DNA from: Bdellovibrionia bacterium | GTDB taxonomy: Bacteria; Bdellovibrionota; Bdellovibrionia; Bdellovibrionales; JAGQZY01 | DNA: 32,436 nucleotides | NCBI GenBank assembly: GCA_030424715.1 | Contig: JAUHWH010000004.1 | Span: 1 to 32,436 of the forward strand | Direction: 5' to 3' | Part shown: piece after piece, positions 2,165 to 32,435 of the stretch | How positions within the stretch are numbered: position 1 is the first letter of the stretch | Layout: every line of letters begins with the position of its first letter | Made by a program: the position numbers and the translations under genes | Notes under the pieces: model-generated | The model's database searches: none | What the model was told of the DNA's origin: nothing | Seen by the model: the letters and a program-made list of their open reading frames with translations, nothing else

Positions 2165-2596
2165 TTCATCGGAACAGCATCTGAAAATAATATTCCAAGT
2201 TCAAGTTTCCTTGGAACAAAAACGTCTTGTTTTGATTTGCTGAAATACCCGTATATTGTCCTAGTGTCTTAATTTTCCGTTTTTCTCTGAGCCCCAAAAA
2301 ATAAATTGAGCAGTTTCATAACAACGACATTCTGAGCTTGTCTGATTTGTTCTTTCTATCATGTATTGTTTTTTTTCCGAATGGATCAAGTGGGAAAGGA
2401 CTAAGATCGACTCAGGAGGTCGTGATTTGCTACGGACTTAGATTTCCCGAGGGTTTTAAGGCAGTCTCTATTCGAGCTCCAGATTTCTGTTCGATCAAGT
2501 TTGGAGTCTAGGTTGTGTCAGCGAAATTCATCTTAAGGTCTTTCTAAAAAAAGCCGATATAAATAATGAAATAGAATAGTTGTGGAGATTCTTAAT
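2165..2596. other. Intergenic region, 432 bp, no gene seen
   Basis: No convincing reading frame is present. A 7-bp hairpin lies shortly after the fibre gene stop, with arms TTCCAAG at 2193-2199 and CTTGGAA at 2210-2216. It has no T-run, so it is a weak terminator candidate. The AT-rich segment about 2548-2580 (with GATATAAATAAT) could hold the promoter of the lipoprotein gene, but I see no clear -35 element. The length suggests that the fibre gene and the lipoproteins are separate transcription units. Confidence 0.5.
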
Positions 2597-4180: not shown

Positions 4181-4197
4181 GGGGGCTACCCTTAAGG
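4175..4197 (+). terminator. Hairpin overlapping the lipoprotein stop codon
   Basis: Perfect 9-bp arms CCTTAAGGG (4175-4183) and CCCTTAAGG (4189-4197) flank a 5-base loop and include the stop codon. A T-run (4215-4221) comes only about 18 bases later, so the terminator is imperfect. A competing 7-bp hairpin, GGGGGAT at 4199-4205 with ATCCCCC at 4226-4232, lies just downstream. Either could end or attenuate transcription between the two paralogues. Confidence 0.4.
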
Positions 4198-4288
4198 CGG
4201 GGGATTTTCGTCGGGTTTTTTAGAGATCCCCCAAAAATTTCAATCCTTTATAAAATTTTAAGCGTCTTATACCGATACATGTATTGGT

Positions 4289-17824: not shown

Positions 17825-19183
17825 CTAGGATTTTACCCATAGGTTTTGTAGTTGACTGATCACTTTCGTGCGATAGGCAAAAATCTTTGAGACATCTTTT
17901 TTAACAAACTGCCCAGCGACCAGTTGTCCCAACCGGCCCATGGGTAATTCGTATACCACTTGATCTTTCATCAGAGTGCCCTTGTCGAAAGGTTCGAAGC
18001 TGTGGGTGTGGTGCCACTTTTTGTAGGGACCGCGCAGTTGATTGTCGACAAAGACTTCAGGTGGCTTCCAGGTGGCAATATTAGTTCGCCACTTCATCGG
18101 AAGGCCTTTCAACGAGATTGTGTAGTCAATCAGAGTTCCTTCGTTGATAGAGTCCGTTGACTGGCGTAGAACTTTGAAATTGAGCCACGGGGGAGTGATT
18201 TTTTCAAGGTTCTTGGCTTCGGCAAAAAATGGAAAAACGTCTTCTCGCTGGGCTGAGATCCATTGTTCAGCTTTATGAATGCGATGAGATTTTTTTTTCT
18301 TCCATTGATAAATATCTTCTAAGGCTCCTTGCAAGGTTTCGAATTTAAACTCAAAATCTTGTTCCATAAGTTTGGCACACGAAACCCTCTGACTGTTTAA
18401 AGCCAAAGCCGACATTTCTCCAAGCACGAGTTTCAGCATAAATGCGGGAGCCGGTAAGTAAGCTCCCACCTGCAATTGTTGGCTGTATGCCTTTGTCCAT
18501 TCTCGGTTGGTGACCGGTTGCGGGGCGACGGCATTAAACACACCTCGAATCGGCTGCTCGAGGGCAAACAAAAAGGCTCGGACAAGGTCATCAATATGAA
18601 TCCAGCTTAGCCACTGCTCACCATCAGAGACTCGGCCTCCGAGGCCCAGAGAAAAGAGCTCTTCCATGGGCTCCAAGAAACCCTGGTTGCTATCGAGAAC
18701 CACGCCAAGTCTGAGAATGGCGGTGCGGGAGTGGCTTTCGAAAAGGCGGTGGGCCTCCTCCCATTGCACACAGACCTCGCTGAGAAAGCCTTCTCCCGGA
18801 GAGTCGTCCTCCGAAAGCACTTTGTCGCCCCGGGTTCCGTAATAACCGATAGCCGAAGCTCCGATGTAAACAGATGGCCACTGCCCCTCTAAAGCCTCCG
18901 CCAGGGATTGGGTGGTTTTTGTCCGTGACTCCAGAATAATTTTTTTCCGTTTCGTGGTCCAACGGCCACTGGCAATACCAGCGCCGGCTAAGTGAAAAAC
19001 CGCATCGATATTAGAAAGTTTCAGGTTGTCCCACGAATGGTACTCGCAGGGGATGCTAAAACCCTCGCGAAACGACGCCTCCGGTGAGCGTCCGACGACA
19101 ACAAGGTCGTGGCCTTTTAAAAAGAGTTCTCGAGACAATTGTCGACCAACAAGTCCAGTGGCACCAGTTACTAATACACGCAT
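17825..19183 (-). CDS. TIGR01777-type NAD-dependent epimerase fused to an SRPBCC domain
   Basis: 452 aa, well above the about 300 aa of the stand-alone family (E. coli YfcH). Residues 1-295 are an extended-SDR Rossmann domain. The nucleotide motif GATGLVG (7-13) is followed by HLAGAGIASGRWT (64-76), GASAIGYYG (108-116) and RLGVVL (158-163). LGEMSALALNSQRV (254-267) is typical of the C-terminal DUF1731 region. Residues about 300-450 (IHKAEQWISAQREDVFPFF..., ITPPWLNFKV, LPMGRLGQL) form an SRPBCC/START-like ligand-binding domain, known in other bacteria as a separate or fused partner. The substrate is unknown; a hydrophobic or lipid-like ligand is inferred from the fused domain. It begins four bases after the lipocalin stop and is the last gene of the sigma-chrR operon. 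Confidence 0.85.
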   Translation of the reverse strand: MRVLVTGATGLVGRQLSRELFLKGHDLVVVGRSPEASFREGFSIPCEYHSWDNLKLSNIDAVFHLAGAGIASGRWTTKRKKIILESRTKTTQSLAEALEGQWPSVYIGASAIGYYGTRGDKVLSEDDSPGEGFLSEVCVQWEEAHRLFESHSRTAILRLGVVLDSNQGFLEPMEELFSLGLGGRVSDGEQWLSWIHIDDLVRAFLFALEQPIRGVFNAVAPQPVTNREWTKAYSQQLQVGAYLPAPAFMLKLVLGEMSALALNSQRVSCAKLMEQDFEFKFETLQGALEDIYQWKKKKSHRIHKAEQWISAQREDVFPFFAEAKNLEKITPPWLNFKVLRQSTDSINEGTLIDYTISLKGLPMKWRTNIATWKPPEVFVDNQLRGPYKKWHHTHSFEPFDKGTLMKDQVVYELPMGRLGQLVAGQFVKKDVSKIFAYRTKVISQLQNLWVKS

Positions 19184-19187
19184 TGTT

Positions 19188-19784
19188 CTACTGCAGTCCT
19201 TTCACATAGTCGCACATTGAAATATCGTCTTCAAAGTCCATGCCGGGTGTGTCTGTCATTTTAAAAACACAGGTGTCATAACCTTGCGAAACAAGCTCAT
19301 CGTTTAAAGTTTTATAGTCGGCTGGGTTCAGTTGCTCTGTTTTTGCAAGAATCCATCCGTAATTGTAAGTGGGGTGGCCAACGATTGCGATATCGTAGTC
19401 TTTCGAGATATAGAGCGTCCAATAATCACCAGCGGCCTCCCAGATCCAGCCGCCAAAATTCACAAAAGTCACTTCAAGGGTTGAGTTCAGCCCGTAGTCT
19501 TGGTTGACCCGGGCTCGGGCCTCTCTCGACACTCGTTTTCCATTCTTTTCATCACAACTGTTGACCACTTTAACCAGCCCATCTGGAAGGATCGAGTATT
19601 CTGCCGTGGCATTACCTATGCAGTTGTTTTGGAAGCTAGCGGGGATGGTGGCGTGTTGATGCCACAACCCTTGGTACTTGACCAGGTCTAAATCGGGTAA
19701 GGGCATTGGCTTTCGTGGTGCATTCATCGCTAACAACAAGGGTGCCGAAAAGAGCAAAATAAAAGCGGTGATAAATTGTGGCAT
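19188..19784 (-). CDS. Exported lipocalin (Blc-like)
   Basis: The ATG at 19784 is chosen with GGAG eight bases upstream; the in-frame TTG one codon earlier is less likely. The product is 198 aa. A signal peptide (1-19) ends at LLLA/MNA; there is no lipobox, unlike E. coli Blc, which is a lipoprotein. The lipocalin motif Y.GLW (37-41) begins the barrel, followed by NCIGNATAEYSILPDGLVKVVNSC (54-77). The closing strand pair DYWTLYISKDYDIAIVGHPTYNYGWILAKT (120-149) matches the bacterial lipocalin pattern. Lipocalins bind fatty acids or lysolipids, and bacterial and plastid forms are tied to membrane stress. It follows the chrR-type gene by 12 bases, so it is probably released by the same sigma factor. 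Confidence 0.88.
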   Translation of the reverse strand: MPQFITAFILLFSAPLLLAMNAPRKPMPLPDLDLVKYQGLWHQHATIPASFQNNCIGNATAEYSILPDGLVKVVNSCDEKNGKRVSREARARVNQDYGLNSTLEVTFVNFGGWIWEAAGDYWTLYISKDYDIAIVGHPTYNYGWILAKTEQLNPADYKTLNDELVSQGYDTCVFKMTDTPGMDFEDDISMCDYVKGLQ

Positions 19785-19796
19785 CAAAAAGTCTCC

Positions 19797-20477
19797 TTAA
19801 AAAATGGTTTTGAAAAAAAGTTTACGAAACGGATTTAAAACTCTAGGCAGACCTTCACTAAAAACGAAAGGCCCTTCCAGAGAGACCAGCAACAAGCAGC
19901 CATCGGGATCATCCGTGTAAGGATGGTGCGAGTCCTCAACGCCAAAGCAAGCAAAGTCACCGGTGACATAATCAGAATGTTGGTCTCTAAAGCTGCCGGC
20001 AACAACATAAGCGTATTCGTTACCGTCGTGGGAGTGCTGGGCTATCTTGGCACCCGCCTCAAAGTGGACAAAATAGAGGTTACTAGTTCCGGCAATGTTC
20101 ACTTTCGAGTAACTGATTGAGCCAAGACGTCTCCAAGATGTCATAAACCGCTCAGCCTTTTGCAGAGCTTTAGGTAGCAAGACCTTTTTGTTTTTGAACG
20201 ACAAAGTTCTTGATGACGTGACGACTTGAGGGGACGCAGGAGAATCACTCTGACTAAGGATTCGATCTTGAATCTTCGATAAATCAGGCCGCACACCGTC
20301 GTTAATCAGGGGTGCCGAAGACATCTCCTCGGCCAATCGCTTTTCTGTCTGCTCTAACCGTGAACAGCAGTGGGCACAATCTTGCGAGTGAGCGCTTACG
20401 AGTATCGCCAGGTGATCATCCAGGTGGCCTGAGGCAAACTCCGTCAGTACAGCGTCGCAGGGGTGCTTGGTAGTCAT
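19797..20477 (-). CDS. chrR: ChrR-type zinc anti-sigma factor with cupin domain
   Basis: 226 aa. Residues 1 to about 85 are a zinc anti-sigma domain: His 5, His 30, Cys 34 and Cys 37 reproduce the spacing of the Rhodobacter sphaeroides ChrR zinc ligands (His 6, His 31, Cys 35, Cys 38). Residues about 110-210 are a cupin. His 148, His 150, Glu 154 and His 184 match the second metal site of ChrR (His 141, His 143, Glu 147, His 177), within QHSHDGNEYAYVVAGSF. In the known system the zinc domain sequesters the ECF sigma factor, and singlet oxygen or organic hydroperoxides trigger release through the cupin. The start overlaps the sigma stop by four bases (ATGA), as expected for stoichiometric synthesis. 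Singlet-oxygen sensing here is inferred from complete ligand conservation. Confidence 0.93.
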   Translation of the reverse strand: MTTKHPCDAVLTEFASGHLDDHLAILVSAHSQDCAHCCSRLEQTEKRLAEEMSSAPLINDGVRPDLSKIQDRILSQSDSPASPQVVTSSRTLSFKNKKVLLPKALQKAERFMTSWRRLGSISYSKVNIAGTSNLYFVHFEAGAKIAQHSHDGNEYAYVVAGSFRDQHSDYVTGDFACFGVEDSHHPYTDDPDGCLLLVSLEGPFVFSEGLPRVLNPFRKLFFKTIF

Positions 20478-21088
20478 AAGCCCTCCATAAAATGATTTAA
20501 CTTGCGAATCGCCAGTCGGATGCGGGATTTTACGGTGCCCAGCGGAATTTGCCGAGATTGGGAATATTCTTCTTGAGTCAGACCCGAGAAGTAAACTTGC
20601 TTGATTGCATCTTTCTGGCTTACAGAAAGTCGGTCCACAAATCTGTGCAATTCTTGTTTTTCCTGGGAGGTTTCGATATCGGCATTGGGGTCGACGACTT
20701 TTTGGGCCAGAGTTGAATAGAGGTCCTCCGATGAGAGAGCTCTGGCATCGCGTGCCGACTTTCGCAAAAGATCAAAGCGAACGTTGCGGGAGAGGGTGAA
20801 TATCCATGTTTTCGCCTCGCCTTTATCGGCCTGAAAAAGATGAGCTTTAAACCACACCCGGCTCATGACTTCTTGCACTAGGTCTTTCGATTGAGCCGAA
20901 GTGAGACCATTGGAGACACCATAACTGTAGACTTTGGGGGCAAAAGTTTCAAAGATCTTGTTGAATGAGCTTTGACAACGGGCTCTGGCCACCTTTGATA
21001 ATAGTTCTGTGTGGTTGTCATTTTCCACGATGAGGAACCGCCTTCGATAGGGTCTTTTCAGTTCTCTAACATTAGCAGCCATTAGCAT
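20474..21088 (-). CDS. rpoE: ECF-family RNA polymerase sigma factor (RpoE of RpoE-ChrR type)
   Basis: 204 aa. Region 2 (about residues 38-110) contains SSFNKIFETFAPKVYSYG, the DLVQEVMSRVW core-binding motif and WIFTLSRNVRFDLLRK for the -10 element. Region 4 (about 137-202) has LHRFVDRLSVSQKDAIKQVYFSGLTQEEYSQ followed by IPLGTVKSRIRLAIRKL for the -35 element. GGAGG lies ten bases before the chosen ATG (21088). Pairing with a ChrR-type anti-sigma places it in the ECF group responding to photo-oxidative stress. It starts a leftward four-gene operon and sits back to back with the photolyase operon, so it probably transcribes both. Promoter motifs of the Rhodobacter TGATCC type are not evident in the intergenic region, so the recognised sequence may differ here. 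Confidence 0.92.
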   Translation of the reverse strand: MLMAANVRELKRPYRRRFLIVENDNHTELLSKVARARCQSSFNKIFETFAPKVYSYGVSNGLTSAQSKDLVQEVMSRVWFKAHLFQADKGEAKTWIFTLSRNVRFDLLRKSARDARALSSEDLYSTLAQKVVDPNADIETSQEKQELHRFVDRLSVSQKDAIKQVYFSGLTQEEYSQSRQIPLGTVKSRIRLAIRKLNHFMEGL

Positions 21089-21151
21089 CGGGATAAAGCC
21101 TCCGTGGAGATGAGCAACCGTGAGTCATTCCTATTTAAATACGGTTTAATC

Positions 21152-21175
21152 CTAAAAAAAGTTCACTTTTTTTAG
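21152..21175. promoter_or_regulatory. Perfect 24-bp inverted repeat between the divergent sigma/chrR and photolyase operons
   Basis: Arms CTAAAAAAAGT (21152-21162) and ACTTTTTTTAG (21165-21175) flank a two-base centre within the 148-bp divergent spacer (21089-21236). Nearby is a small inverted repeat, GGGTT (21185-21189) and AACCC (21194-21198). The symmetry could reflect paired promoter elements read in both directions, a regulator site or a transcription boundary. I cannot assign -35/-10 boxes for the ECF sigma factor. Confidence 0.45.
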
Positions 21176-21236
21176 TCCCCAATCGGGTTCTCTAACCCCT
21201 TGTAGCTACTGGTTTTTTTAAAGCGGTGATGTTTTA

Positions 21237-21599
21237 GTGGCCGTCGTTGAACCTTTTCTCGATAGTCAGCGTATTACCCGTATGATTACGACTCAACGGG
21301 CCTTAATCTTGGCTATTGTTCTTTTTTTAGTAGCGCTCGGGCTTTCCGGGGTGCGTGGAGAGTTTTGGAACGAAGCGAGTCAGATTGCCACTCTGCCCTG
21401 GGGTCAACTGATGTTGTTCGATTTGTATGTCGGGTTCGCAATTTTCTCTCTTTTAATTTTCAGAGTCGAGAAAAGGGGTCTCCGACGCTTTCTATGGACA
21501 CTCAGTCTCTTTGTTTTGGGTAACATCGTCGCTCTGGTATTTCTTCTGGTTCATCTGCCCTCAGTCCAATTTCAACGAACTTCCAAGGAGCGGTCATGA
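21237..21599 (+). CDS. Small integral membrane protein (DUF1475-like signature)
   Basis: 120 aa from a GTG start. GGTGAT six bases upstream is a partial Shine-Dalgarno; the in-frame ATG at 21282 has none. Three hydrophobic segments are seen at about residues 21-40, 56-76 and 85-107. The pattern LMLFDLYVGFAIFSLLIFRVEKR followed by LFVLGNIVALVFLL resembles small bacterial and plant membrane proteins of the DUF1475 type (LLDLY.GF ... LGN), but the assignment is tentative. It overlaps the next gene by four bases (ATGA) and is the first gene of the rightward run facing away from the ECF sigma gene. Function unknown; an inner-membrane protein of the photo-oxidative stress response by context. Confidence 0.7.
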   Translation: MAVVEPFLDSQRITRMITTQRALILAIVLFLVALGLSGVRGEFWNEASQIATLPWGQLMLFDLYVGFAIFSLLIFRVEKRGLRRFLWTLSLFVLGNIVALVFLLVHLPSVQFQRTSKERS

Positions 21600-22045
21600 A
21601 GTACCCCGCAGCTGTCCAAAACTTTGTAGATTTCTACAATGAATTTAGCGTCGAAAATCCCTCGGTCTTTAACAAGGTCTATGGAGAGAGCGTTGTTTTT
21701 CAAGACCCCTTTCATCGAATCGAAGGGCGCCCGGCACTCTACTCTTATTTTCAGGGAATGATGCGACAGGTTTTGAAGTGTGAGTTTAACATCTTGGATA
21801 TTCACCTCGGGGATTTACCAGCTGGAGAGCCTGGTGCGGCCTCGGTGATTTGGGATATGACTTTGCAGCACAAGGCCCTCAATAGGGGCAAAGAGTTTGT
21901 CGTGAACGGATCGACTCTGATTCAATTTGATGGACAGGTGATACTCCATCGCGACTTCTTTGATTCCAGCCAGCTGATTTATAAGAACATCCCGGTCATT
22001 AAATCCTTTGTCCGCTTAATTGAAAAGGGGATGGCTGTTGAGTGA
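21596..22045 (+). CDS. SnoaL/NTF2-like protein
   Basis: 149 aa, no signal peptide. AAGGAG precedes the ATG, which overlaps the upstream stop. The pattern VQNFVDFYNEFSVENPSVFNKVYGESVVFQDPFHRIEGRPALYSYFQGMM is the typical opening of the SnoaL/NTF2 cone fold. There, helices are followed by a strand with 'F.DP...', and 'G...L..Y' leads into the next helix. Strands GAASVIWDMTLQHKALNRGKEFVVNGSTLIQFDGQVILHRDFFD complete the sheet. Members are hydrolases, isomerases or binding proteins for small hydrophobic molecules; catalytic residues vary and I cannot assign one. SnoaL-like genes recur in ChrR-type clusters. Here the role is probably with lipid or oxidised-lipid chemistry, an inference from context only. 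Confidence 0.82.
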   Translation: MKYPAAVQNFVDFYNEFSVENPSVFNKVYGESVVFQDPFHRIEGRPALYSYFQGMMRQVLKCEFNILDIHLGDLPAGEPGAASVIWDMTLQHKALNRGKEFVVNGSTLIQFDGQVILHRDFFDSSQLIYKNIPVIKSFVRLIEKGMAVE

Positions 22046-22075
22046 GTTCTTCACCGACTGTTCGAGGCCTCTTTT

Positions 22076-22618
22076 TTGAACAACGGCGTCGCACTGTCCT
22101 CAGAAAATATTGTTCTTAATGCTGTTGGCTTTCAGCTTTCTTGGTGGGGTATTGCCCTGTACAAAGAAAAGGCTATTCTTCCGGTGTTAATCTTGGTTTG
22201 CTTCCACTTGTTATTTTTGAAAAAAAGACGAAAAGAAGAGGCCTTTTTTATTGTTGGCGTTGCCTTGCTGGGAGTCTGCATGGACTCTTTTCTGTTTGAC
22301 CTGGGTATTTTTCGATTTGAGCAATCTCTGGTCGCTTCGTCTCCCATAGTGCCTCTTTGGCTTATCACCTTGTGGCTTGCTTTTGCGACGACCCTCAATC
22401 ATTGTCTTGCTTGGTTGTTTAAAAACCCGAGAGTCACATTTCTGGCCGGTGGTGCGGGAGGGGCTCTAAGTTATGTTGGCGCAGCTCGCTTAGGGACGCT
22501 GGAAATGCCTATGCCTTTACTAGTGAGTGTTCCCCTTTTGTTTATGCTATGGGGTGTGTTTTTAAGCCTGGTACGGCCCGCGTCTGATTATTTGAAGGTG
22601 AGAGGAGCGACTTCATGA
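22076..22618 (+). CDS. DUF2878-like integral membrane protein
   Basis: 180 aa from a TTG start supported by GAGG eight bases upstream. Hydrophobic segments are seen at about residues 32-50, 55-75, 88-112, 122-140 and 145-168. The pattern NAVGFQLSWWG near the start, MDSFLFDLGIF in the middle, then P(I/L)WLITLWLAFATTLNHCLAWL and GGAGGALSYVGAARLG, matches my recollection of DUF2878. These proteins often sit beside photolyase and ChrR-regulated genes in marine gammaproteobacteria. It lies 30 bases after the SnoaL gene and overlaps the photolyase by four bases (ATGA). Biochemical function unknown; inner membrane. Confidence 0.75.
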   Translation: MNNGVALSSENIVLNAVGFQLSWWGIALYKEKAILPVLILVCFHLLFLKKRRKEEAFFIVGVALLGVCMDSFLFDLGIFRFEQSLVASSPIVPLWLITLWLAFATTLNHCLAWLFKNPRVTFLAGGAGGALSYVGAARLGTLEMPMPLLVSVPLLFMLWGVFLSLVRPASDYLKVRGATS

Positions 22619-24027
22619 AAAAGTATTCTCGCGGCCTGGTTTGGCTACGTCGTGATCTGCGTTTACAGGACAACCGAGCGGTAAGCCGAGCGACCCACGA
22701 GTGTGACGAAGTGGTTCCTGTCTTTGTTTTTGACCGGAAAATTTTAGATAAACTCGGTAACCGAGAAGACAAGCGCATAACATTTCTGCACGAAACCCTC
22801 GCCGAGCTGGACGAGGAGTTGCAAGAGATGGAGTCATCACTGGTGGTTCGCCAAGGCGACCCTGTAGAGGAGATCCCAGCTGTACTGCAAGCCCTTGATT
22901 GCGACGTGTTGTATTTCAACGAGGATTATGAACCCTATGCTAAGCAGCGAGATCCCAAGGTCTGCGAACGGATTCAGAAAGAGGGCGCCAAGGTTTTCTC
23001 TTTCAAGGACCATGTGATTTTTTCGGGTGCGCAAGTATTAAAATCTGACGGCGACCCCTATCAAGTGTTTACACCCTACAAAAACACCTGGCTCAAAAAG
23101 GCTGAGGCCAAAGACTTTGAGGCTGAGAAGTTTAAAAAGAATTTTGTGAGCCGTCAAAAAGCCAAGAAGGTCTCCCAAAGCCCGACTTTGAAAGATTTAG
23201 GATTTGAAAAAGCCGAGCTCCCCCTTGATTTTCAGAAACCCGGGCGCAAACAAGCGCTCAAGAGGCTGAAGGCCTTTGCCAAAAAAATGAGCCAATATCA
23301 AGATGAAAGAGATTTTCCAGCTCTAGAAATGGGCACCTCAGGCCTTTCTGTGCATTTGCGATTTGGCACTCTGTCGATTCGAGAGTGTTTTAGGGAGTGC
23401 CGTTCTCAGAACAGCAAGGGGGCTCGGGTTTGGCAGTCAGAATTGATCTGGCGCGATTTCTATCAGATGATTCTGGATCAGTATCCTCATGTTGCGAAAA
23501 AGGCATTCAAAGAAAAATACGCCAGTATCAAATGGAAGGGCAGCAAGAGTCACTTCGAGGCTTGGTGCGAAGGCCGAACGGGCTTTCCCATTGTCGACGC
23601 AGGAATGCGGCAACTTAATGAAACAGGGTGGATGCACAATCGCGTGCGGATGATTACGGCCTGCTTTTTAGTCAAAGATCTGTTGGTCGACTGGAAAAAA
23701 GGAGAAGCCTACTTCGCCGAGAAGCTGTTGGACTTCGACTTGGCATCAAACAACGGAGGCTGGCAGTGGAGTGCGTCTACGGGATGTGATGCCCAGCCTT
23801 ACTTTCGAATCTTCAACCCGTCCTCGCAATCGGAACGTTTTGATAAAGACGGAGAGTACATCAAAGAATGGATCCCGGAGCTTAAAGATGCCGAGGTGAA
23901 AGATCTGCACAAGCCGGAGTCGGCTCGATTGGACTGGGGGACGGAGTATCCGGCACCGATCATTGTCCATAGCGAACAAAGGGACAAGGCTTTGGCTTTA
24001 TTCAAAGGAGCCAAGGATGGGAAGTGA
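22615..24027 (+). CDS. phr: Deoxyribodipyrimidine photolyase (class I CPD photolyase/cryptochrome family)
   Basis: 470 aa, full length. The N-terminal antenna-binding Rossmann domain starts at LVWLRRDLRLQDNRAV (8-23), the photolyase signature, and spans about 1-135. The C-terminal FAD domain contains GTSGLSVHLRFGTLSIRE, WQSELIWRDFYQMIL, RTGFPIVDAGMRQLNETGWMHNRVRM and the signature LDFDLASNNGGWQWSASTGCDAQPYFRIFNP, with the WQW tryptophan involved in electron transfer to FAD. The enzyme repairs cyclobutane pyrimidine dimers using blue/near-UV light. Photolyase genes are classical targets of RpoE-ChrR, and this one sits in the divergent operon. It overlaps both neighbours (4 bases upstream, 11 bases downstream). 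CPD rather than (6-4) specificity is the likely call but not proven from sequence. Confidence 0.94.
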   Translation: MKKYSRGLVWLRRDLRLQDNRAVSRATHECDEVVPVFVFDRKILDKLGNREDKRITFLHETLAELDEELQEMESSLVVRQGDPVEEIPAVLQALDCDVLYFNEDYEPYAKQRDPKVCERIQKEGAKVFSFKDHVIFSGAQVLKSDGDPYQVFTPYKNTWLKKAEAKDFEAEKFKKNFVSRQKAKKVSQSPTLKDLGFEKAELPLDFQKPGRKQALKRLKAFAKKMSQYQDERDFPALEMGTSGLSVHLRFGTLSIRECFRECRSQNSKGARVWQSELIWRDFYQMILDQYPHVAKKAFKEKYASIKWKGSKSHFEAWCEGRTGFPIVDAGMRQLNETGWMHNRVRMITACFLVKDLLVDWKKGEAYFAEKLLDFDLASNNGGWQWSASTGCDAQPYFRIFNPSSQSERFDKDGEYIKEWIPELKDAEVKDLHKPESARLDWGTEYPAPIIVHSEQRDKALALFKGAKDGK

Positions 24028-25306
24028 CGAAAACACTGTGACGAAAAATCGCACCACGGCTCTGCTAAAAATGGCGACGAAGGTGGCGCTGCGAGAAGGT
24101 AAAAGCTTTTTTGAGAAAAAAGCGGAACAACAGTTAGCGAAAATGTTGGACCAAGCGGACGTGATAGTGAAGCAAGTGGGGCAATTAAAAGGAGCGGCGA
24201 TGAAGGCTGTGCAAATGGTGTCTGTGGAAGCACAAGACCTGCTACCGCCCGAGGTACTACAAGTCCTGGAGAAATTGCAATCCCAAGCCCCGCCACTGTC
24301 AAACGAGGTTATGATTGAGGAGTTGCGATCCGAGCTGGGCCCGCAGCGTTTCTCGGAAATAAAAAATCTATCAAGCCAGCCCATCGCATCTGCGAGCATT
24401 GGACAGGTCTATCGGGGTGATATCGACGGGCAAAGTGTGGTGATAAAAATTCAGTATCCGGGTGTCGCCGACAGTGTTGATCAGGACCTCAGGATATTGA
24501 AAAAGTTGGTGCAGGCGCTATTGGTTTTGGCGCGTAAAAGAATTGATATGGACGCCTTGTTTGTCGAAATGAAGCGGGTTCTTAAGCTCGAGACCAACTA
24601 TCTCAATGAGGTCGAGCAACTTCTCAAATACAAGGCCTTTTTCCAAGGCGAGACCCAGTATAAAATCCCAGAGGTTTACCCCGAGTTGTCCACCAGTAAG
24701 GTTATTGTTTTAAGTAACGAAGAGGGATTGGAGTTCACCGACTGGTTGAAGACCAATCCGTCGCTCGCGATGCGAGAGACCATAGGCATTTCCCTTCTTA
24801 ATCTTTACATGGAAGAATTCTTTAAAAATCAGTTGGTCCAAACCGACCCCAACCCGGCCAACTTTTTGATTAACCACCAGAATCAACTGGTGTTGTTGGA
24901 TTTTGGTGCGACCATTTCGTATTCCGATGAATTTGTGACCGATTACAAGGCATTGTTGCGCACCGTCTTCAGTGGCAGTGACGATGAAATTCTTCAGAAA
25001 ATTCAAACTTTGGGCTTTGTTTCTCCGAAAGAGACCGACGAGGTGAAAAATGACTTCGTCCAATTTATCAAGCTTTCCTTGTTGCCATTCTCCGAAGATT
25101 TACAGCCCTTCGACTTTGGTTCAGAGGAGTATCCGGAGCAGGTTCGAGAAACCGTCCTTAGTTTTTCAAAAAAGCTAAAGCACTCGGCGCCACCGAGCAA
25201 CATTATTTTTTTGCATAGAAAGCTCGGAGGCATCTTTCAGATGCTGAGAAAGCTAGGCGTTAAAATTGATATCACCCCGTACCGAGATATGATTTTGAAG
25301 AATTGA
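24017..25306 (+). CDS. ABC1/AarF (UbiB/COQ8/ABC1K) atypical kinase family protein
   Basis: The ATG at 24017 is chosen because AGGAG lies six bases upstream; it overlaps the photolyase by 11 bases. The product is 429 aa. Family motifs are in order. The KxGQ-like helix region is LKGAAMKAVQMVS (57-69). The alanine-rich nucleotide loop is IASASIGQVYRG (123-134). The VIKIQYPG strand carries Lys 144, the catalytic-loop counterpart QTDPNPANFL has Asp 277 and Asn 282, and the metal-binding DFG is at 295-297. The KxGQ motif reads K63-A-V-Q66, with valine for the usual glycine. No transmembrane anchor is evident. ABC1 proteins support ubiquinone or other prenyl-lipid metabolism; UbiB-type E. coli proteins are longer, with C-terminal membrane helices. 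Context with lipid-protection genes suggests a role in quinone or lipid homeostasis under oxidative stress rather than core ubiquinone synthesis. Confidence 0.9.
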   Translation: MGSDENTVTKNRTTALLKMATKVALREGKSFFEKKAEQQLAKMLDQADVIVKQVGQLKGAAMKAVQMVSVEAQDLLPPEVLQVLEKLQSQAPPLSNEVMIEELRSELGPQRFSEIKNLSSQPIASASIGQVYRGDIDGQSVVIKIQYPGVADSVDQDLRILKKLVQALLVLARKRIDMDALFVEMKRVLKLETNYLNEVEQLLKYKAFFQGETQYKIPEVYPELSTSKVIVLSNEEGLEFTDWLKTNPSLAMRETIGISLLNLYMEEFFKNQLVQTDPNPANFLINHQNQLVLLDFGATISYSDEFVTDYKALLRTVFSGSDDEILQKIQTLGFVSPKETDEVKNDFVQFIKLSLLPFSEDLQPFDFGSEEYPEQVRETVLSFSKKLKHSAPPSNIIFLHRKLGGIFQMLRKLGVKIDITPYRDMILKN

Positions 25307-25345
25307 ACAGCAATGAGTAAAAGATCTTTAATATAAGGAGAACAC

Positions 25346-25900
25346 ATGAGTTTAACGTCCATTTTTTACAAAACAGCCTTGGTTACATTGGTTGTCTTAA
25401 CAGGAGGCATTGTGAGTGCAACAACAATACAAGATCAGAAAATAGAAGACATTGGTGGCAAGTCCATGAGCCTGGCGGACTACAAAGGTAAAGTGGTTCT
25501 GCTGGTCAATATCGCCACAAAGTGCGGATACACGCCTCAGCTTAAGGGGTTAGAGGCGCTTTATCAAAAGCACAAAGATCAAGGCCTGGTGGTTGTGGGG
25601 ATCCCGAGCAATGACTTTGGTGGTCAGACTCCCGAAGATGAAAAAGGTGTGAAAAAGTTTTGCCTTCTTAATTACGGAGTGACTTTTCCGCTGACCAGTA
25701 AGACCGTCGTTAAGGGAGAAAACAAGCACCCATTGATTGCGAGTTTGGTGAAGGCCTCGAGCGATGCCAAAGAAATCGGCTGGAATTTTGAAAAATTCTT
25801 GATCGGAAAAGACGGCCAACTGGTACAACGTTATGGCTCATCTGTTAAACCTGACGACCAAAATCTGGAAAAGCAAATCACGACGTTGCTTGCTAAGTAA
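25346..25900 (+). CDS. Exported glutathione peroxidase (cysteine type)
   Basis: 184 aa with AAGGAG before the ATG. Residues 1-25 form a signal peptide (hydrophobic core ALVTLVVLTGGIVSA), unlike the cytoplasmic BtuE-type enzymes. The catalytic tetrad is recognisable: Cys 60 in NIATKCGYTPQ (where animal enzymes have selenocysteine), Gln 94 in FGGQTPED, and Trp 146/Asn 147 in WNFEKFL. Two further cysteines sit away from the active site only as KKFC, so thioredoxin- or glutathione-type resolution cannot be told. The enzyme reduces hydrogen and lipid hydroperoxides, here in the periplasm. It follows the ABC1 kinase gene by 39 bases and probably belongs to the same stress-induced run. Confidence 0.92.
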   Translation: MSLTSIFYKTALVTLVVLTGGIVSATTIQDQKIEDIGGKSMSLADYKGKVVLLVNIATKCGYTPQLKGLEALYQKHKDQGLVVVGIPSNDFGGQTPEDEKGVKKFCLLNYGVTFPLTSKTVVKGENKHPLIASLVKASSDAKEIGWNFEKFLIGKDGQLVQRYGSSVKPDDQNLEKQITTLLAK

Positions 25901-25936
25901 ATCGCATTTTTAAATCGACCGAACAAGGAAGGCCGT

Positions 25937-26719
25937 ATGGAACTCAACGGGAAAAACATTCTAATATCCGGAGCCAATCGAGGCATTGGTTTGGCCCTAG
26001 CTAAAAAAGCCGCTTCTTCTATGATGAACGTTCATCTACTTTGCCGCACCCGCGATCCCGGGGTAGAGGCGGAGCTTAAAAAACTGGGAGCTTCCCTTGT
26101 CAAGTCTTGGAGCCTTGATCTCAGCGACCCTAAAAATATTGAGGCTTTTGCCGCAGAGTTTGAAAAGTCCGACTTCACTTGTGATGTTTTGGTTAACAAT
26201 GCTGGACAACTCACGGGCGGGCTTGTTGAAGAGCAGGACATTCAAAAAGTCTATCAGATGTTTCAGGTGAATCTTGTCGGTTTGATCGACCTCACCAAAC
26301 GAATGTTGCCAGGGATGCTAAAATTGCCTGAGGCGAAGGTTGTTAACAATGCATCGGTCTCTGGCTTGATGTATTTACCATGTGCTAGTACCTACGCCGC
26401 TAGCAAAGCGGGAGTCATCGCGTTTACCGAGTCGTTGCGTAACGAGTTGGAGGGGACTTCTGTTTCAACACTAACAATGATCACTCCCGGAGTGAAAACG
26501 AGGATGTACGATGAGATCCCCGACCTTTACTCGGGACACCTCGATTTAAAATTTTTGTCGTCAATTCCGGCTGACGAGTGGGTTGAAGAAGTCTTCCGTT
26601 GTATGAAAAAGGACATTGCTGTTTGTTGGCCGTCGGGGCAGTCGTTTTTGGGAGTCAAACTCGGGCAGCATTTTCCGGGACTTCTCAGTCGGATGGTTCG
26701 TCCTTATTTTAAAAGGTGA
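25937..26719 (+). CDS. Short-chain dehydrogenase/reductase
   Basis: 260 aa, classical SDR length. The nucleotide-binding motif SGANRGIG (11-18) and NNAG (87-90) are present. The catalytic Ser lies in NNASVSG (Ser 140 or Ser 142), followed by Tyr 153 and Lys 157 in STYAASKAG, with Asn 112 in QVNLVG completing the tetrad. The C-terminus GQHFPGLLSRMVRPYFKR is typical of SDRs acting on acyl or hydrophobic substrates, often membrane-associated. It starts 36 bases after gpx with AAGGAAGG as ribosome-binding site, and the next gene starts one base after its stop. SDR genes recur in ChrR-regulated clusters. Substrate unknown. Confidence 0.92.
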   Translation: MELNGKNILISGANRGIGLALAKKAASSMMNVHLLCRTRDPGVEAELKKLGASLVKSWSLDLSDPKNIEAFAAEFEKSDFTCDVLVNNAGQLTGGLVEEQDIQKVYQMFQVNLVGLIDLTKRMLPGMLKLPEAKVVNNASVSGLMYLPCASTYAASKAGVIAFTESLRNELEGTSVSTLTMITPGVKTRMYDEIPDLYSGHLDLKFLSSIPADEWVEEVFRCMKKDIAVCWPSGQSFLGVKLGQHFPGLLSRMVRPYFKR

Positions 26720-26720
26720 T

Positions 26721-27194
26721 ATGAGAGTCTTGCTGGCGTTTCTCATTTTTACTCCTTTGTATTTGATTTGGCTCCTGGTCTGTGCGGTATTGAGTTTCAT
26801 TGGCGTTTTTATTCCTCTGTCCAACAAAAAATTACAGCCAACTATGGTTCAGAAAAGGCAGACCGTTTGTCGCGTGATGAATGAGAAGGGACTCTTGTCC
26901 GATCACGAATATAGTTTTGAAACCGAAGTGGTTGCCTCACAGTACGATGAATTCACGTTTTCTGGTTACCTCGTGATCTTGGGGCCGGTGATTTTGCTGT
27001 TAAAGCATTTCGCGTTTCTCGACAGCTTTATGATGGCCTTGATCCGACAGTGGATGCGAGTTCATAGCTTTCGTGAGGACGCCGGTAGTGGTTCTCCAGT
27101 GCCCCGCTTTCTCGTGAGCCTCGCCGCCTTTTGTGTGGGGATTGCCCGATCTTTTGGGAAAGTTCTTTATGTTTTGAGCTGGGGTCGGCGTTAA
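26721..27194 (+). CDS. Membrane protein of unknown function
   Basis: 157 aa. The ATG at 26721 follows the SDR stop by one base, with AAAAGGTGAT directly upstream; longer starts inside the SDR gene are not supported. Residues 4-33 form one long or two short membrane segments (LLAFLIFTPLYLIWLLVCAVLSFIGVFIPL region). A second hydrophobic segment lies at about 84-100 (LVILGPVILLLKHFAFL) and a third at about 131-150. The middle region is hydrophilic and basic. I do not recognise a family. Tight coupling to the SDR suggests the two proteins act together, perhaps on a membrane-embedded substrate. Confidence 0.78.
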   Translation: MRVLLAFLIFTPLYLIWLLVCAVLSFIGVFIPLSNKKLQPTMVQKRQTVCRVMNEKGLLSDHEYSFETEVVASQYDEFTFSGYLVILGPVILLLKHFAFLDSFMMALIRQWMRVHSFREDAGSGSPVPRFLVSLAAFCVGIARSFGKVLYVLSWGRR

Positions 27195-27280
27195 GCCTTT
27201 GATTTTGTATGAAAAAGACGAAATCAGGTACCAATCTTGCGCGGGATAGGGTACTGGTCAAATTACAAAGGGGCTTCACC

Positions 27281-27580
27281 ATGAAAAAGACGTTCTCCAT
27301 TATTTCTGACAACAAAAAGCCGGCCCGGCAAGTGGATGCTATTAAGCACGAGGTCAAAAAGTACATAGCCCGCGAGCGCCGACGAGACCTACCCGAGGGC
27401 GCCGACTTTTGGGATTTCAATTGTAAAATTGGCCCATCCGAAGACGCCGCCCAGGATGTCCATCCGACCAAAATCAATCAAGCGATTGATGAAATGGTTA
27501 CTGCAGGCAAGCAAAGCTTTTTCATTCAGGTGCTAGCTCACCCACGAACTCGTCAAACGAAGCCTAAAAACGAAACATAA
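27281..27580 (+). CDS. DUF6172-like small protein
   Basis: 99 aa from the ATG at 27281; an in-frame ATG at 27209 has no ribosome-binding site. The pattern MKKTFSI..., ARQVDAIKHEVKKYIARERRRDLPEGADFWDFNCKIG, then INQAIDEMV..GKQSFFIQVLA matches a small conserved proteobacterial family I recall as DUF6172. It has a basic helical start, then a FWDF strand and a C-terminal alpha/beta part. There is no signal peptide, so it is cytoplasmic. Function unknown. It lies 86 bases after the membrane protein gene and may have its own promoter. Its link to the stress cluster is only by position. Confidence 0.8.
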   Translation: MKKTFSIISDNKKPARQVDAIKHEVKKYIARERRRDLPEGADFWDFNCKIGPSEDAAQDVHPTKINQAIDEMVTAGKQSFFIQVLAHPRTRQTKPKNET

Positions 27581-27701
27581 TTCTTGCCGCACAATCTCAT
27601 AGACCCCAACGCGGTCCGCTGCCTCCCCCCTGGGAACGACGCATCCCTTGCCACTGGCTTCTTGATTGATAACAATGAGGCATCATCAAAAGGGGGATTG
27701 C

Positions 27702-28385
27702 ATGAAAAATATATTTTTAATTTTAGGAATTGGTTTTTTAACTATCACGGCACAAGCGGCCGATGTGACTGCTTTGAAACAGGAGATCACTGTTCTCGCC
27801 AAAGCCAACACCACCAACGTTAGTGCTCAGTCCGAAGTGCGAAAAGATTTGGACAATCTCATTAGCGAGTTGACCGCCTCGCAGCCTGAAGTGACGGAGC
27901 AGCAGTGGGTCAAGTTTTCCCCGGGCAGTTGGAGACAAATCTGGTCTGACGAAGCTGACAATTCCCCAGCGGGTTCACCGAGTCGCAACCTCGATAAAAT
28001 ATTTCAGTATGTTTCCAACGCAGGGCGTGCGGTGAACTTTGGAGAACGAAGACTTCCCAATGGCGTCACTGTAACCTTCGCTCTTGAAGCTGTGGGAGCT
28101 GTCAGTGGAAACAAGCAAAACACCAAAATATTAAAAGGCTTTAGCCGCAATCAGGGCCTGGTCAGCGGAGAGTATATTAGCCAACTGGCGACCAGTATTT
28201 TAGAAGGCGACCTTGGTGAGTTCGAACCGGCCAAATTAGGAGAGTTTCCCAAAGGGCCGATCAATGCGGAAAGCGATTTAACCATTCTTTATCTCGATGA
28301 CGATTTGAAGATTGGCACAGCTCCAAACGTCTACACCGGTGCCATTGAGCTTTTTGTTCTCGAGCGGGTGATATCCGTTCAGTAA
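27702..28385 (+). CDS. Exported PAP/fibrillin-like protein
   Basis: The ATG at 27702 is chosen because AGGGGG lies upstream and MKNIFLILGIGFLTITAQA begins a signal peptide; an earlier ATG in frame has no such support. The product is 227 aa. Residues 44-62 (EVRKDLDNLISELTASQP) followed by a W-containing strand (VKFSPGSWRQIWSDE) resemble the opening of plastid-lipid-associated (PAP/fibrillin) domains. The C-terminal SDLTILYLDDDLKIGTAPN (191-209) matches their conserved 'D.TYLDDDLRIGR..N' end. The fold is a lipocalin-like barrel that binds lipids. In plants and cyanobacteria these proteins coat plastoglobules or protect photosynthetic membranes. Here it would act in the periplasm. Call rests on end motifs and domain shape. 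Confidence 0.68.
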   Translation: MKNIFLILGIGFLTITAQAADVTALKQEITVLAKANTTNVSAQSEVRKDLDNLISELTASQPEVTEQQWVKFSPGSWRQIWSDEADNSPAGSPSRNLDKIFQYVSNAGRAVNFGERRLPNGVTVTFALEAVGAVSGNKQNTKILKGFSRNQGLVSGEYISQLATSILEGDLGEFEPAKLGEFPKGPINAESDLTILYLDDDLKIGTAPNVYTGAIELFVLERVISVQ

Positions 28386-28420
28386 AATAGAGAATTTCAG
28401 AATCACGGAGGAGGATGGAT

Positions 28421-29878
28421 ATGAAGCCGATCAATTTTTTTTTGGTCCTTGTTTTTTGGGGTTCTTGTGCATGGTCAAAGGCCAGCCTTAGCCCCGCCTT
28501 ACAGCAGAGTTTAAGCTCCAGCGAGACCAGTGATATTGTCATCTATTTAAAGACAAAGGCTGATCTAAAATCAGCCTTTGCTATTTTGGATCGAACCTCG
28601 CGCGTCGCCCATGTTGTCGAAAAACTTTTAGATGCGTCGGAGTCATCGCAAAAGCCGATCCTGCAGTTTTTGGAGACTCGCGGATTTAAGGCTCGCGGTT
28701 TTGTCTCCACCAATGCGATTGCTGTGTCAAAGGTACCGTCAAATTTAGTCCAGCGGTTGTCGCGATTCTCCGCGGTTCGCAGCATTGGGTTGGATGTTCG
28801 ATCTAAACTCAATCTTCCTTTTCCGTTTCCGGAATCTCCAGAAGAAGAAAAAAAAGTGATAGGGATACCTTCTCACCTCTCTCGCATCAAAGTGGATCGA
28901 GTGTGGAATGAACTTAAAGTCAGAGGCGAAGGGATCGTCATAGCTGGGCAAGACACCGGTTACTTTTGGAAGCACAAAGCTCTGCAAGACAAGTACCGAG
29001 GCTTTAACCAGGGGTTTGTCGATCATAATTACAATTGGCACGACGGTATCGTGGGGGCGCCCTGTTCCCCCGGAGGCGCTGAGCCTTGCGACGACAAGGA
29101 CCACGGAACTCACACCATGGGCTCTATTGTGGGTGACGACGGTCAAGGCAATCAAATTGGCGTGGCGCCGGGAGCTCAGTGGATCGGGTGTCGCAATATG
29201 CAAAAAGGTGTGGGGACGGTTTCTAGTTATCTCGAGTGCTTTGACTTTTTTCTTGCGCCTTTTCCGATCAATGGCAGCGTTGCAAAAAATGGACGACCTG
29301 ACTTGGCTCCTCATATTTTAAACAATTCGTGGAGCTGCCCTAAAAGCGAAGGCTGTGTTGGCGATGAGTTTTTGAATGTGGTGCAAGCCTACAAAGCCGC
29401 CGGGATTCTATTGGTGGCAGCAGCCGGCAACGATGGGCCCAGTTGCGGAACAGCCAGTAATCAGCCGGCCAGTTTTGCGGGAGATGTACTGGTTGTTGGT
29501 GCCTGGAATTCGTATATCAACGAAATCGCCTTTTTCTCTGGCGTCGGGCCATCACCCTTTAAGAAACAGTTGGCGCCCAACGTGATTGCAGTGGGCACTG
29601 GCGTGAAGTCCTCCATGGCGTCTGGCCCCAATGATTACGACGACAAAGCGGGCACATCGATGGCCTCACCACAGGTGGCTGGAGTTGTGGCTTTGCTCTG
29701 GTCCTATAAACCCGAACTGATTGGTCAAATTGACGCCACTCTTGATGTGATACAGAGAACGGCAGACCCCATCCGAGCCAGTCAAACTTGCGGCGCTTTT
29801 TCAGGCGGCAGTATTCCCAACGCCGTCTACGGCTATGGAATGGTTAATGCCTACAGGGCTTTGACTGAGAAACTTTGA
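28421..29878 (+). CDS. Secreted S8 subtilisin-like serine protease
   Basis: The ATG at 28421 is chosen because GGAGGAGG sits six bases upstream; the in-frame ATG at 28415 directly abuts it. The product is 485 aa. Signal peptide: residues 1-21. Residues about 22-130 are an inhibitor-like propeptide (IVIYLKTKADL..., FKARGFVSTNAIAVSKVPSNLVQRLSRF). The catalytic domain has Asp 178 in AGQDTG, His 228 in DHGTHTMGS and Ser 413 in GTSMASPQVAG. The oxyanion Asn is Asn 337 in AAAGNDGP (or the Asn pair at 301-302). Several cysteines (CSPGG..PC, WSC..EGC, SCGT) suggest disulfides typical of extracellular forms. Resembles bacillopeptidase F-type subtilases. It begins 35 bases after the fibrillin-like gene; the following gene is another subtilase. 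Confidence 0.92.
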   Translation: MKPINFFLVLVFWGSCAWSKASLSPALQQSLSSSETSDIVIYLKTKADLKSAFAILDRTSRVAHVVEKLLDASESSQKPILQFLETRGFKARGFVSTNAIAVSKVPSNLVQRLSRFSAVRSIGLDVRSKLNLPFPFPESPEEEKKVIGIPSHLSRIKVDRVWNELKVRGEGIVIAGQDTGYFWKHKALQDKYRGFNQGFVDHNYNWHDGIVGAPCSPGGAEPCDDKDHGTHTMGSIVGDDGQGNQIGVAPGAQWIGCRNMQKGVGTVSSYLECFDFFLAPFPINGSVAKNGRPDLAPHILNNSWSCPKSEGCVGDEFLNVVQAYKAAGILLVAAAGNDGPSCGTASNQPASFAGDVLVVGAWNSYINEIAFFSGVGPSPFKKQLAPNVIAVGTGVKSSMASGPNDYDDKAGTSMASPQVAGVVALLWSYKPELIGQIDATLDVIQRTADPIRASQTCGAFSGGSIPNAVYGYGMVNAYRALTEKL

Positions 29879-29931: not shown

Positions 29932-31986
29932 ATGCAAAGATTTTTAATCACTCTTGTTTTAATTTTGGGAGTTTCCGTTGCTTTAGCACAAGTGCCGGCT
30001 CCGGCTGACACCTCTCATCCGGGTAACGAGACAGCGGTTCTCTCCTTTGAACGCTTTGAAATAAAAGAGTTGGGTCGGACCTCACCACTTTATCTCCCCA
30101 AGCGAACCGATGGTAAAAAGGTTCCGCTGGTGGTTTTTGGACATGGGCAAGCCTTGAATGAAACTCACTACGACAAAACCCTAGAGCATTTGGCAAAGAA
30201 AGGTGTCGCAGCCCTTTTTCCAAAATTTGATGATGGTTTTTTTGATCAAAATTGGCGGCGAATGGCCGACGACTGGAACGCTATAACAAAAGCGGCTTTG
30301 AAGGAGTATGGAATTCGTGTTGACGCCAAACATGTTGTCTACAGTGGGCATTCCAAAGGTGGCTATGTCGGGTTGATGGCCATGGGGGCCCCAAGCCAGC
30401 CGGCCGTTGATAGTGGGGTGTTTTTTGCTCCCGCAGGCTATGACTCGGAGTATTTACAGAATCTTGAGGACGACGTCGAGGTCACTTTAGTTTGGGGCGA
30501 GAAAGACTCCGTCATTGAAAAAAGTGCGGTTATGGAGATCTACAACGCCCTTACCGTTGAGAACAAGCAGTTCATCGAAGTGCTGAGCTACAACAACCGA
30601 GAGGCCGATCACTATTTCCCACAAAATAAGTCGACATTTTTTGGAGGTAAAAATGGTGTGAGTGCTTTTCATCATCATGGCGTCTGGCAATGGTTGGTAG
30701 CGGCAGCCTGGGATGTTGAAAATGGAGGAGATGCGCTGCAGCCCTATCTGTATGGTGAAAAGGCTGGAGTCAGTGGGCAACCAGGTTTAAAGCACAAGGT
30801 CCAGCGCAGTTGGTCGCCTCGCTTTGAGGCTCTTATAAAGCCAACGGATGCCAATAGCTTTTTAACAACCACCGGGCGCAATTTAGTCCTTAGCGAAGTG
30901 GGGTGGGGTTGGTATAAAGCCATTTTATCGGAGCAGATCTTCCAGCGACTTCAGCGCTCTAAGGATGTTCAATATGTTGGTCGCAACCATGAGTTGAAAT
31001 TGCTGTTAGAGCCCAATGACTTGGATCCGAGGCAGTGGGCGTTTAAAAATCCTTTGGGCTTTGACGTTTCCGCCCCTGGGGCTTGGGATCTTGTTTCCAC
31101 CGCAGAAGAGGTTGTGGTGGCCGTGATAGATTCTGGGATTCAGTGGAAGCATTCGGACCTTCGAGACAATCTTTGGATCAACCAAGCCGAAGCAGAGGGG
31201 CAGGCGGGTGTTGACGACGATAACAATGGCTATATTGATGATGTTAAGGGCTTTCACTTTCTTTTGAACAATGGAGAATCCAACGATAGCCGAGGTCATG
31301 GCACCATGGTCAGTGGAATGATTGGAGCCGTTGGAAACAACGGACGTGGTATCACGGGAATGGCCTGGAACGTGAAGTTGATGTCTTTAAATATGTTTCC
31401 CAATTTGTGGGGAAATGCCACTCTAGAGGCAGCGGTTAAAGCTGTGCACTACGCTGTTGATAACAAGGCAGACATTATTAACGCCTCTTTTGGCCAAGCC
31501 GATGAAGACTTGGTGCCGGATGACGGCTTCAAGATCTTTATCGAGGCCCTGGAGAGGGCGGAAAAGGCGGGGATACCCGTGATTGCGGCGGCTGGCAACA
31601 GCTCGGGCAACAACGACAAGACGGGGATGATTCCGGCCACATTGGGACTAAGCAATATCATTTCTGTAGGGGCTATGAATCGTAAGGGGGAAAAGTGGGC
31701 GAAAACAAATTACGGTAAAAACAGTGTGCATGTGATGGCCCCAGGTGAAGAGATTCTTACGACCCACACCAGTGGCACCCGCAGCCCTTCGGGGACATCT
31801 TTAAGCGCTCCTATCGTCACAGGTATTGTGGCCTTGATGTTGGATAAAAATCCCGACCTCACCTTAGCTCAAATCAAAGATATTTTGCTGAACTCATGTG
31901 ATGCCCATCCTCCGTTGGCAGAACTGAGCCTTTGCGGCGGATACATCAATGCGGCTAAGGCTGTGGAGGCGGCCAACCTTAAGTAA
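29932..31986 (+). CDS. Secreted alpha/beta-hydrolase fused to an S8 subtilase
   Basis: 684 aa with AAGGAG before the ATG. Signal peptide: residues 1-19 (cleavage ALA/Q). Residues about 40-260 form an alpha/beta-hydrolase of the dienelactone hydrolase/chlorophyllase-like type. Oxyanion strand VVFGHGQ is at 67-73, nucleophile elbow GHSKG has Ser 141, WGEKDSVI has probable acid Asp 192, and ADHYF has probable His 227. Residues about 360-684 form an S8 protease: Asp 400 in AVIDSG, His 456 in RGHGT, Asn 556 in AAAGNSS and Ser 623 in GTSLSAP. The joining segment (280-390) carries a subtilase lead-in (PNDLDPRQWAFKN...APGAWDL). Both triads look intact, so two serine hydrolases appear joined in one exported chain. 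The hydrolase sits where a protease propeptide usually is. Whether the parts are separated by processing is not visible. Confidence 0.88.
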   Translation: MQRFLITLVLILGVSVALAQVPAPADTSHPGNETAVLSFERFEIKELGRTSPLYLPKRTDGKKVPLVVFGHGQALNETHYDKTLEHLAKKGVAALFPKFDDGFFDQNWRRMADDWNAITKAALKEYGIRVDAKHVVYSGHSKGGYVGLMAMGAPSQPAVDSGVFFAPAGYDSEYLQNLEDDVEVTLVWGEKDSVIEKSAVMEIYNALTVENKQFIEVLSYNNREADHYFPQNKSTFFGGKNGVSAFHHHGVWQWLVAAAWDVENGGDALQPYLYGEKAGVSGQPGLKHKVQRSWSPRFEALIKPTDANSFLTTTGRNLVLSEVGWGWYKAILSEQIFQRLQRSKDVQYVGRNHELKLLLEPNDLDPRQWAFKNPLGFDVSAPGAWDLVSTAEEVVVAVIDSGIQWKHSDLRDNLWINQAEAEGQAGVDDDNNGYIDDVKGFHFLLNNGESNDSRGHGTMVSGMIGAVGNNGRGITGMAWNVKLMSLNMFPNLWGNATLEAAVKAVHYAVDNKADIINASFGQADEDLVPDDGFKIFIEALERAEKAGIPVIAAAGNSSGNNDKTGMIPATLGLSNIISVGAMNRKGEKWAKTNYGKNSVHVMAPGEEILTTHTSGTRSPSGTSLSAPIVTGIVALMLDKNPDLTLAQIKDILLNSCDAHPPLAELSLCGGYINAAKAVEAANLK

Positions 31987-32012: not shown

Positions 32013-32435
32013 CTATTGAGGGGTGATGAACTGAACTTGCAGGTTCTTCACTTCTGAGTCCACGAAATGGTACTCTAAAAGACTGGCTAAGTTTTTGACC
32101 TGAGCTTCGGCCAGAGTCTCTTCTCGAATATTCACCAAGATTAAATCACTGGCACCTTGCGAGAACTTGCGGCGCTCGGCAGCGGCTAACTTGTCGGCGA
32201 GCTTCACTTGATCTGTGGAGATTTTATAAATTTCAGCGTAGGCGTTGAGCTGTAGGACGAGGTTCTCGGTGTTCACTTTGAGCTTTTCATAGGTTAGCTT
32301 TTGCTTGGCCTCAATTTGGGCTTGTTTCGCCTTTCCGGCGCGACGCTTACCAAGCCCCTTGCGAAACTGCAGAGGAATATCGATGTTGAGCATAATGCGA
32401 TTTTCATCGGAGTTGATATTGGGCGGGCCAACAAT
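32013..32435 (-). CDS. TolC-family outer-membrane protein, C-terminal part (5' end outside window)
   Basis: The minus-strand frame is open to the right edge, giving the last about 140 residues. An internal Met at 32393 is not the start, since VGPPNINSDENRI is read before it. NRIMLNIDIPLQF followed by a glycine and then basic, helical, coiled-coil-like sequence (KRRAGKAKQAQIEAKQKLTYEKLKVNTENLVLQLNAY) is the usual turn from a barrel strand into the second long helix of a TolC-type protein. A second helix leads to LVNIREETLAEAQVKNLASLLEYHF. It is probably the outer duct of an efflux or heavy-metal/RND system whose other genes lie beyond the window. It is convergent with the hydrolase-subtilase gene. 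Confidence 0.8.
   Translation of the reverse strand: MVGPPNINSDENRIMLNIDIPLQFRKGLGKRRAGKAKQAQIEAKQKLTYEKLKVNTENLVLQLNAYAEIYKISTDQVKLADKLAAAERRKFSQGASDLILVNIREETLAEAQVKNLASLLEYHFVDSEVKNLQVQFITPQ

Follow-up and report, generated by a model that had tools for sequence, protein, structure and literature searches.

An alpha/beta-hydrolase fused in frame to a pro-subtilase in a predicted secreted protein of a Bdellovibrionia bacterium

One open reading frame in the 32,436-nucleotide stretch of Bdellovibrionia DNA analysed here (the window) appears to unite two serine hydrolases, an alpha/beta-hydrolase and a subtilase, in a single exported chain. This raises the questions of whether the chain is a genuine protein, what each half is, and what their linkage may be for. 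The features of the gene and of the adjoining protease gene are collected in Table 1. The frame is uninterrupted when read from the sequence, and an AAGGAG box closely precedes its ATG start codon. A search of the source genome (3.13 Mb, 18 contigs; gene interior to a 259-kb contig) with the fusion protein returned the gene itself as the best match, in an open frame of 687 amino acids with 0 stops, while the other 14 of the 15 matches were confined to the subtilase half.

Table 1. Coordinates of the fusion gene, its parts and the upstream subtilase gene (positions in the window)
Feature	Position	Strand	Basis
Additional secreted subtilase encoded by its own gene (487 aa), which ends 53 bp before the fusion gene	28415..29878	+	PF00082, E 4.1e-30
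Whole fusion gene, 684 aa	29932..31986	+	Open reading frame read; own-genome match
Signal peptide, residues 1-19, MQRFLITLVLILGVSVALA, without lipobox cysteine	29932..29988	+	Direct sequence reading; putative cleavage site
Alpha/beta-hydrolase domain, residues about 20-294, with the C-terminal (R/K)SW motif of its family	29989..30813	+	22-member alignment, Pfam, PDB profile
Hydrolase nucleophile Ser141 in GHSKG	30352..30354	+	Invariant 22/22
Hydrolase acid Asp192	30505..30507	+	Invariant 22/22
Hydrolase His227 (ADHYFP)	30610..30612	+	Invariant 22/22
Subtilase propeptide (I9-like), residues 297-360	30820..31011	+	Gapless alignment with five subtilases; MAFFT
Subtilase catalytic domain, residues about 361-684	31012..31983	+	PF00082; PDB deseasin MCP-01
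Protease Asp400	31129..31131	+	Invariant 20/20
Protease His456	31297..31299	+	Invariant 20/20
Protease oxyanion Asn556	31597..31599	+	Invariant 20/20
Protease Ser623 (GTSLSAP)	31798..31800	+	Invariant 20/20

The chain opens with a signal peptide of the Sec type that has no lipobox. Next come the hydrolase, which extends to W294, and then the propeptide and the protease. Each part has its stand-alone length, the sole loss being the signal peptide of the protease, and a spacer between hydrolase and propeptide is nearly absent (residues 294-297 in the MAFFT alignment). A preliminary description, made from the letters alone, had read two serine-hydrolase modules with complete-looking triads in one exported chain; Pfam matches and invariant residues bore this out, and the triads it had named were correct in every position. 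It had also known no name for the arrangement, which agrees with Pfam, NCBIfam and a search of the open-access literature, where no named family combining S8 and alpha/beta-hydrolase was found. The fusion is a real, precise and rare joining of two ordinary secreted enzymes; the architecture is new and its parts are known.

When Pfam was searched with the full-length protein, the N-terminal half stayed under the cut-offs. The isolated 274-residue domain scored above the gathering thresholds for three families of the alpha/beta-hydrolase superfamily, namely Chlorophyllase (PF07224, 26.4 against 26), Peptidase_S9 (PF00326, 24.3 against 22.6), and DLH (PF01738, 22.1 against 21). The Chlorophyllase score of 26.4 bits fell to 24.2 for the whole protein, and the match implies no substrate. 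A profile built from 22 relatives matched PETase-like and arylesterase structures in the PDB (E 1e-5 to 1e-4). The domain thus has the profile match, the GxSxG nucleophile, and the acid and histidine in the order of the superfamily. With the branch of PETase-like enzymes, dienelactone hydrolases and chlorophyllases it shares the GxSxG nucleophile, an HG(Q) oxyanion loop and the Asp/His order, but it is remote from them and has its own C-terminal end. Its family also has invariant motifs of its own compared with the PETase-like branch: HPG near the N-terminus, GFFDxxWxRM, GHSKG, and H247.

Two candidate assignments were rejected, as the scores lay below the cut-offs of the PET hydrolase-like/cutinase family (PF12740, 22.3 bits against 28) and of the PHA/PHB depolymerases (NF050058, 22.2 bits against 150). 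Since none of the curated NCBIfam families was matched by the hydrolase at its cut-off, we name the substrate, which from the sequence is probably an ester, no more finely than that. Single-sequence AlphaFold2 models, made without relatives, were too poor to show the interface or either active-site geometry (mean pLDDT 37.5 for the whole protein and 41.5 for the hydrolase alone).

The C-terminal half is a member of peptidase family S8, with a match to PF00082 over residues 393-659 (E 1.7e-49), the complete triad and the oxyanion asparagine. Among solved structures, deseasin MCP-01 is the nearest to it in sequence (E 3.7e-47, residues 377-678). The closest stand-alone subtilases, with frames of 412-454 amino acids, were found in five genomes of the phylum (G235 and G238-G241); each has a signal peptide, followed by a propeptide that begins with (E)YLVK or a like sequence and by a catalytic domain that begins with P(N/D)DL.

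The preliminary description held that a protease propeptide had been replaced by the hydrolase. This did not hold: gapless and MAFFT alignments both place a propeptide, kept in full, directly before the catalytic domain. Pfam Inhibitor_I9 gave no match on the fusion protein. The 64-residue propeptides of the five stand-alone subtilases were slid without gaps along the whole fusion, and their summed score was 22 at the window starting at residue 297 versus -101 for the next-best one. Pairwise identity was low (8-15 of 64) and single-pair Z values ranged from 2.1 to 4.5. The fusion propeptide opens with RFEALIK and stops just before PNDL; its counterpart in G239 opens with RFEYLIK. Because an ordinary propeptide is present, control of one half by the other as a zymogen, another of the initial suggestions, is unnecessary. 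In its catalytic domain, triad, oxyanion asparagine and adjacent propeptide of normal length, the fusion resembles S8 subtilases with I9-like propeptides of the deseasin MCP-01 or thermitase type, and it differs from them in the whole alpha/beta-hydrolase inserted between signal peptide and propeptide.

We consider it probable, with some reserve, that a complete secreted hydrolase of the esterase/lipase type and a pro-subtilase lacking only its signal peptide were joined in frame by a natural fusion, and that the product serves 1:1 co-export followed by autocleavage. The whole chain would be exported by Sec in one event, and the propeptide would fold the protease in cis, as expected from subtilase biology. 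On the model of thermitase and similar subtilases, the protease would then cut its own chain close to residue 360, directly ahead of PNDL, to release the mature protease from a hydrolase that keeps the propeptide as a C-terminal tail; the latter piece may stay bound to the protease until it is degraded. The purpose would be to export an ester hydrolase and a protease in equal amounts, for digestion of envelope material or another external substrate.

The almost absent spacer at residues 294-297 makes a stable complex plausible, and the two-enzyme chain could itself function uncleaved, or the piece made up of hydrolase and propeptide could act as an inhibitor or carrier bound to the protease. 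We regard this as unlikely. Cleavage and degradation of the propeptide are normal for subtilases, and a conserved active triad together with a propeptide predicts self-cleavage here as well.

To see how often the arrangement recurs, 369 genomes of the phylum were surveyed. The hydrolase half had matches in 25 of them at E 1e-3, 22 of which were clear (E < 1e-50). The matching frames are mostly 285-340 amino acids long and thus stand-alone, ending at the residue that matches the hydrolase terminus within the fusion. Among the 22 clear carriers the source genome alone has the subtilase fusion, and a 60-residue junction query (residues 265-324) likewise matched this genome only (1/369). One further homolog (G174; L032, L035) is split into two short overlapping pieces in different frames and is likely a decayed copy. 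Searches outside the phylum were narrow: exact-peptide patterns, suited to close relatives only, found no relative of the hydrolase half in named genome contigs, no relative of hydrolase or fusion was found in viral contigs, and a plasmid search for either gave one weak partial match. Within these searches the hydrolase family is restricted to the phylum.

This rarity, one genome in 369, would fit a neutral event in which the stop codon of the hydrolase and the signal peptide of the protease were lost and two unrelated secreted enzymes became joined with no functional gain. The same-genus genome G001 fits it too, as it has no hydrolase and lacks the gene pair beside the conserved HlyD-OEP operon that flanks it in the source genome. 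We nevertheless find a neutral origin improbable, somewhat more so than a lasting complex. Every catalytic residue is kept in both halves despite at most 46-48% identity to relatives, and the hydrolase adjoins another subtilase in two distant genomes. The retention of all catalytic residues over this distance indicates that the proteins are under selection; the fusion itself may be old or young. As the fusion is known from one genome, conservation provides no argument for a functional linkage of the halves. The flanking operon, which encodes a TolC-like OEP/HlyD-type efflux system, lies directly downstream of the fusion on the minus strand (32013-32435 of the window and L116 2114-5538) and is kept in G001 without the fusion.

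An assembly chimera or missed frameshift joining two genes, which the preliminary description had named as its own possible undoing, is very improbable as judged from the assembly. The frame runs on unbroken, the junction falls precisely where the hydrolase family stops and the propeptide family begins, third-position GC is similar across it (0.48/0.52/0.56), and the contig around it, one of 18, is 259 kb long.

Further evidence on the hydrolase comes from its partners. A lipocalin is fused to it, or encoded close by, in 11 of the 21 other clear carriers. It is attached at the C-terminus in G181, after the same SW end, and at the N-terminus in four genomes (G218, G243, G246, and G261); the three of these fusions that were tested matched Pfam Lipocalin_2 with E values of 1e-26 to 1e-31. 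In five genomes (G208, G122, G123, G106, and G012) the lipocalin gene overlaps the hydrolase gene or immediately precedes it. In G268 the two share a strand, the lipocalin gene being three genes upstream and the gaps between genes short. The loci are L038 8816-10249, L039 2787-4175, L048 9117-10544, L050 8370-9887, and L030 949-2262, together with L045, L046, L047, L049, L053, and L036. In the tree, nine of the 11 lipocalin-linked hydrolases form one well-supported clade (100/99), with those of G181 and G268 outside; the subtilase fusion branches elsewhere, beside lipocalin-free stand-alone enzymes (95/90). These lipocalin-linked proteins share the hydrolase family of the fusion, but their partner is a Lipocalin_2 (Blc-type) domain and not a protease. 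The pairing suggests a lipid-like substrate or product of the hydrolase. As a separate observation, the lipocalin gene run of G268 has a gene for a SOUL heme-binding protein immediately after the hydrolase gene (L036 9598-10302); according to a published report, Blc may bind heme (PMC8177097).

The second subtilase gene (Table 1) has clear orthologs in 40 of the 369 genomes (E 1e-90). Hydrolase and subtilase occur together in three genomes, the source genome (G000), G262, and G268, no more often than chance would give (40 and 22 carriers among 369 predict about 2.4). The two genes are close together in each of these genomes, with a different relative orientation every time, and such adjacency in every co-carrying genome is unexpected by chance, small as the number is. 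Delivery of an esterase together with a protease, also raised at the outset, is plausible for the fusion, and a weaker form of it does recur, since each of the co-carriers has a separate subtilase gene next to that of the hydrolase. The fusion protein would act next to this second secreted subtilase.

Elsewhere in the window, a cluster at 17825-28385 encodes an ECF sigma factor, a ChrR-cupin anti-sigma-like protein, a lipocalin, a DUF1731 epimerase/cyclase, a SnoaL-like protein, and a DUF2878 protein, as well as a photolyase, an ABC1 kinase-like protein, a glutathione peroxidase, an SDR, a DUF6172 protein, and a fibrillin-like protein; the set resembles a photo-oxidative stress regulon. The stretch 2582-5569 codes for a tandem pair of proteins bearing HYDIN/ASH-type Ig-like domains (PF22544); upstream of them, at 566-2164, is the gene of a protein whose intramolecular chaperone domain is of the Peptidase_S74 type.

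Equal co-export for the breakdown of mixed lipid and protein material would be the simplest reason for the linkage of the two enzymes. A use in attack on other cells, whose lipid and protein barriers the preliminary description had suggested it might open, is possible. The Bdellovibrio subtilase Bd2269 is secreted and upregulated at prey exit, and the title of the report calls it a prey-lytic protease (PMC12546842). Like the C-terminal half of the fusion, it is a secreted protease of the subtilase family, possibly from the same phylum; it differs in that it is not known to carry a hydrolase fusion. A broader and rather doubtful idea is that the phylum has an unnamed secreted module, in which the hydrolase works with a lipocalin and/or a neighbouring or fused subtilase against lipid esters and proteins of envelopes, and that here the protease has been built in, so that self-cleavage would activate the pair.

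The recurrent pairing of hydrolase and lipocalin is a more general observation than the fusion. Realized as fusion at either end and as overlapping or neighbouring genes, it leads to the prediction that the substrate or product of the hydrolase is a lipid-like compound that a lipocalin can carry. The fusion, if our reading is true, would be a self-processing two-enzyme precursor and an example of secreted degradative enzymes tied to each other at a fixed ratio.
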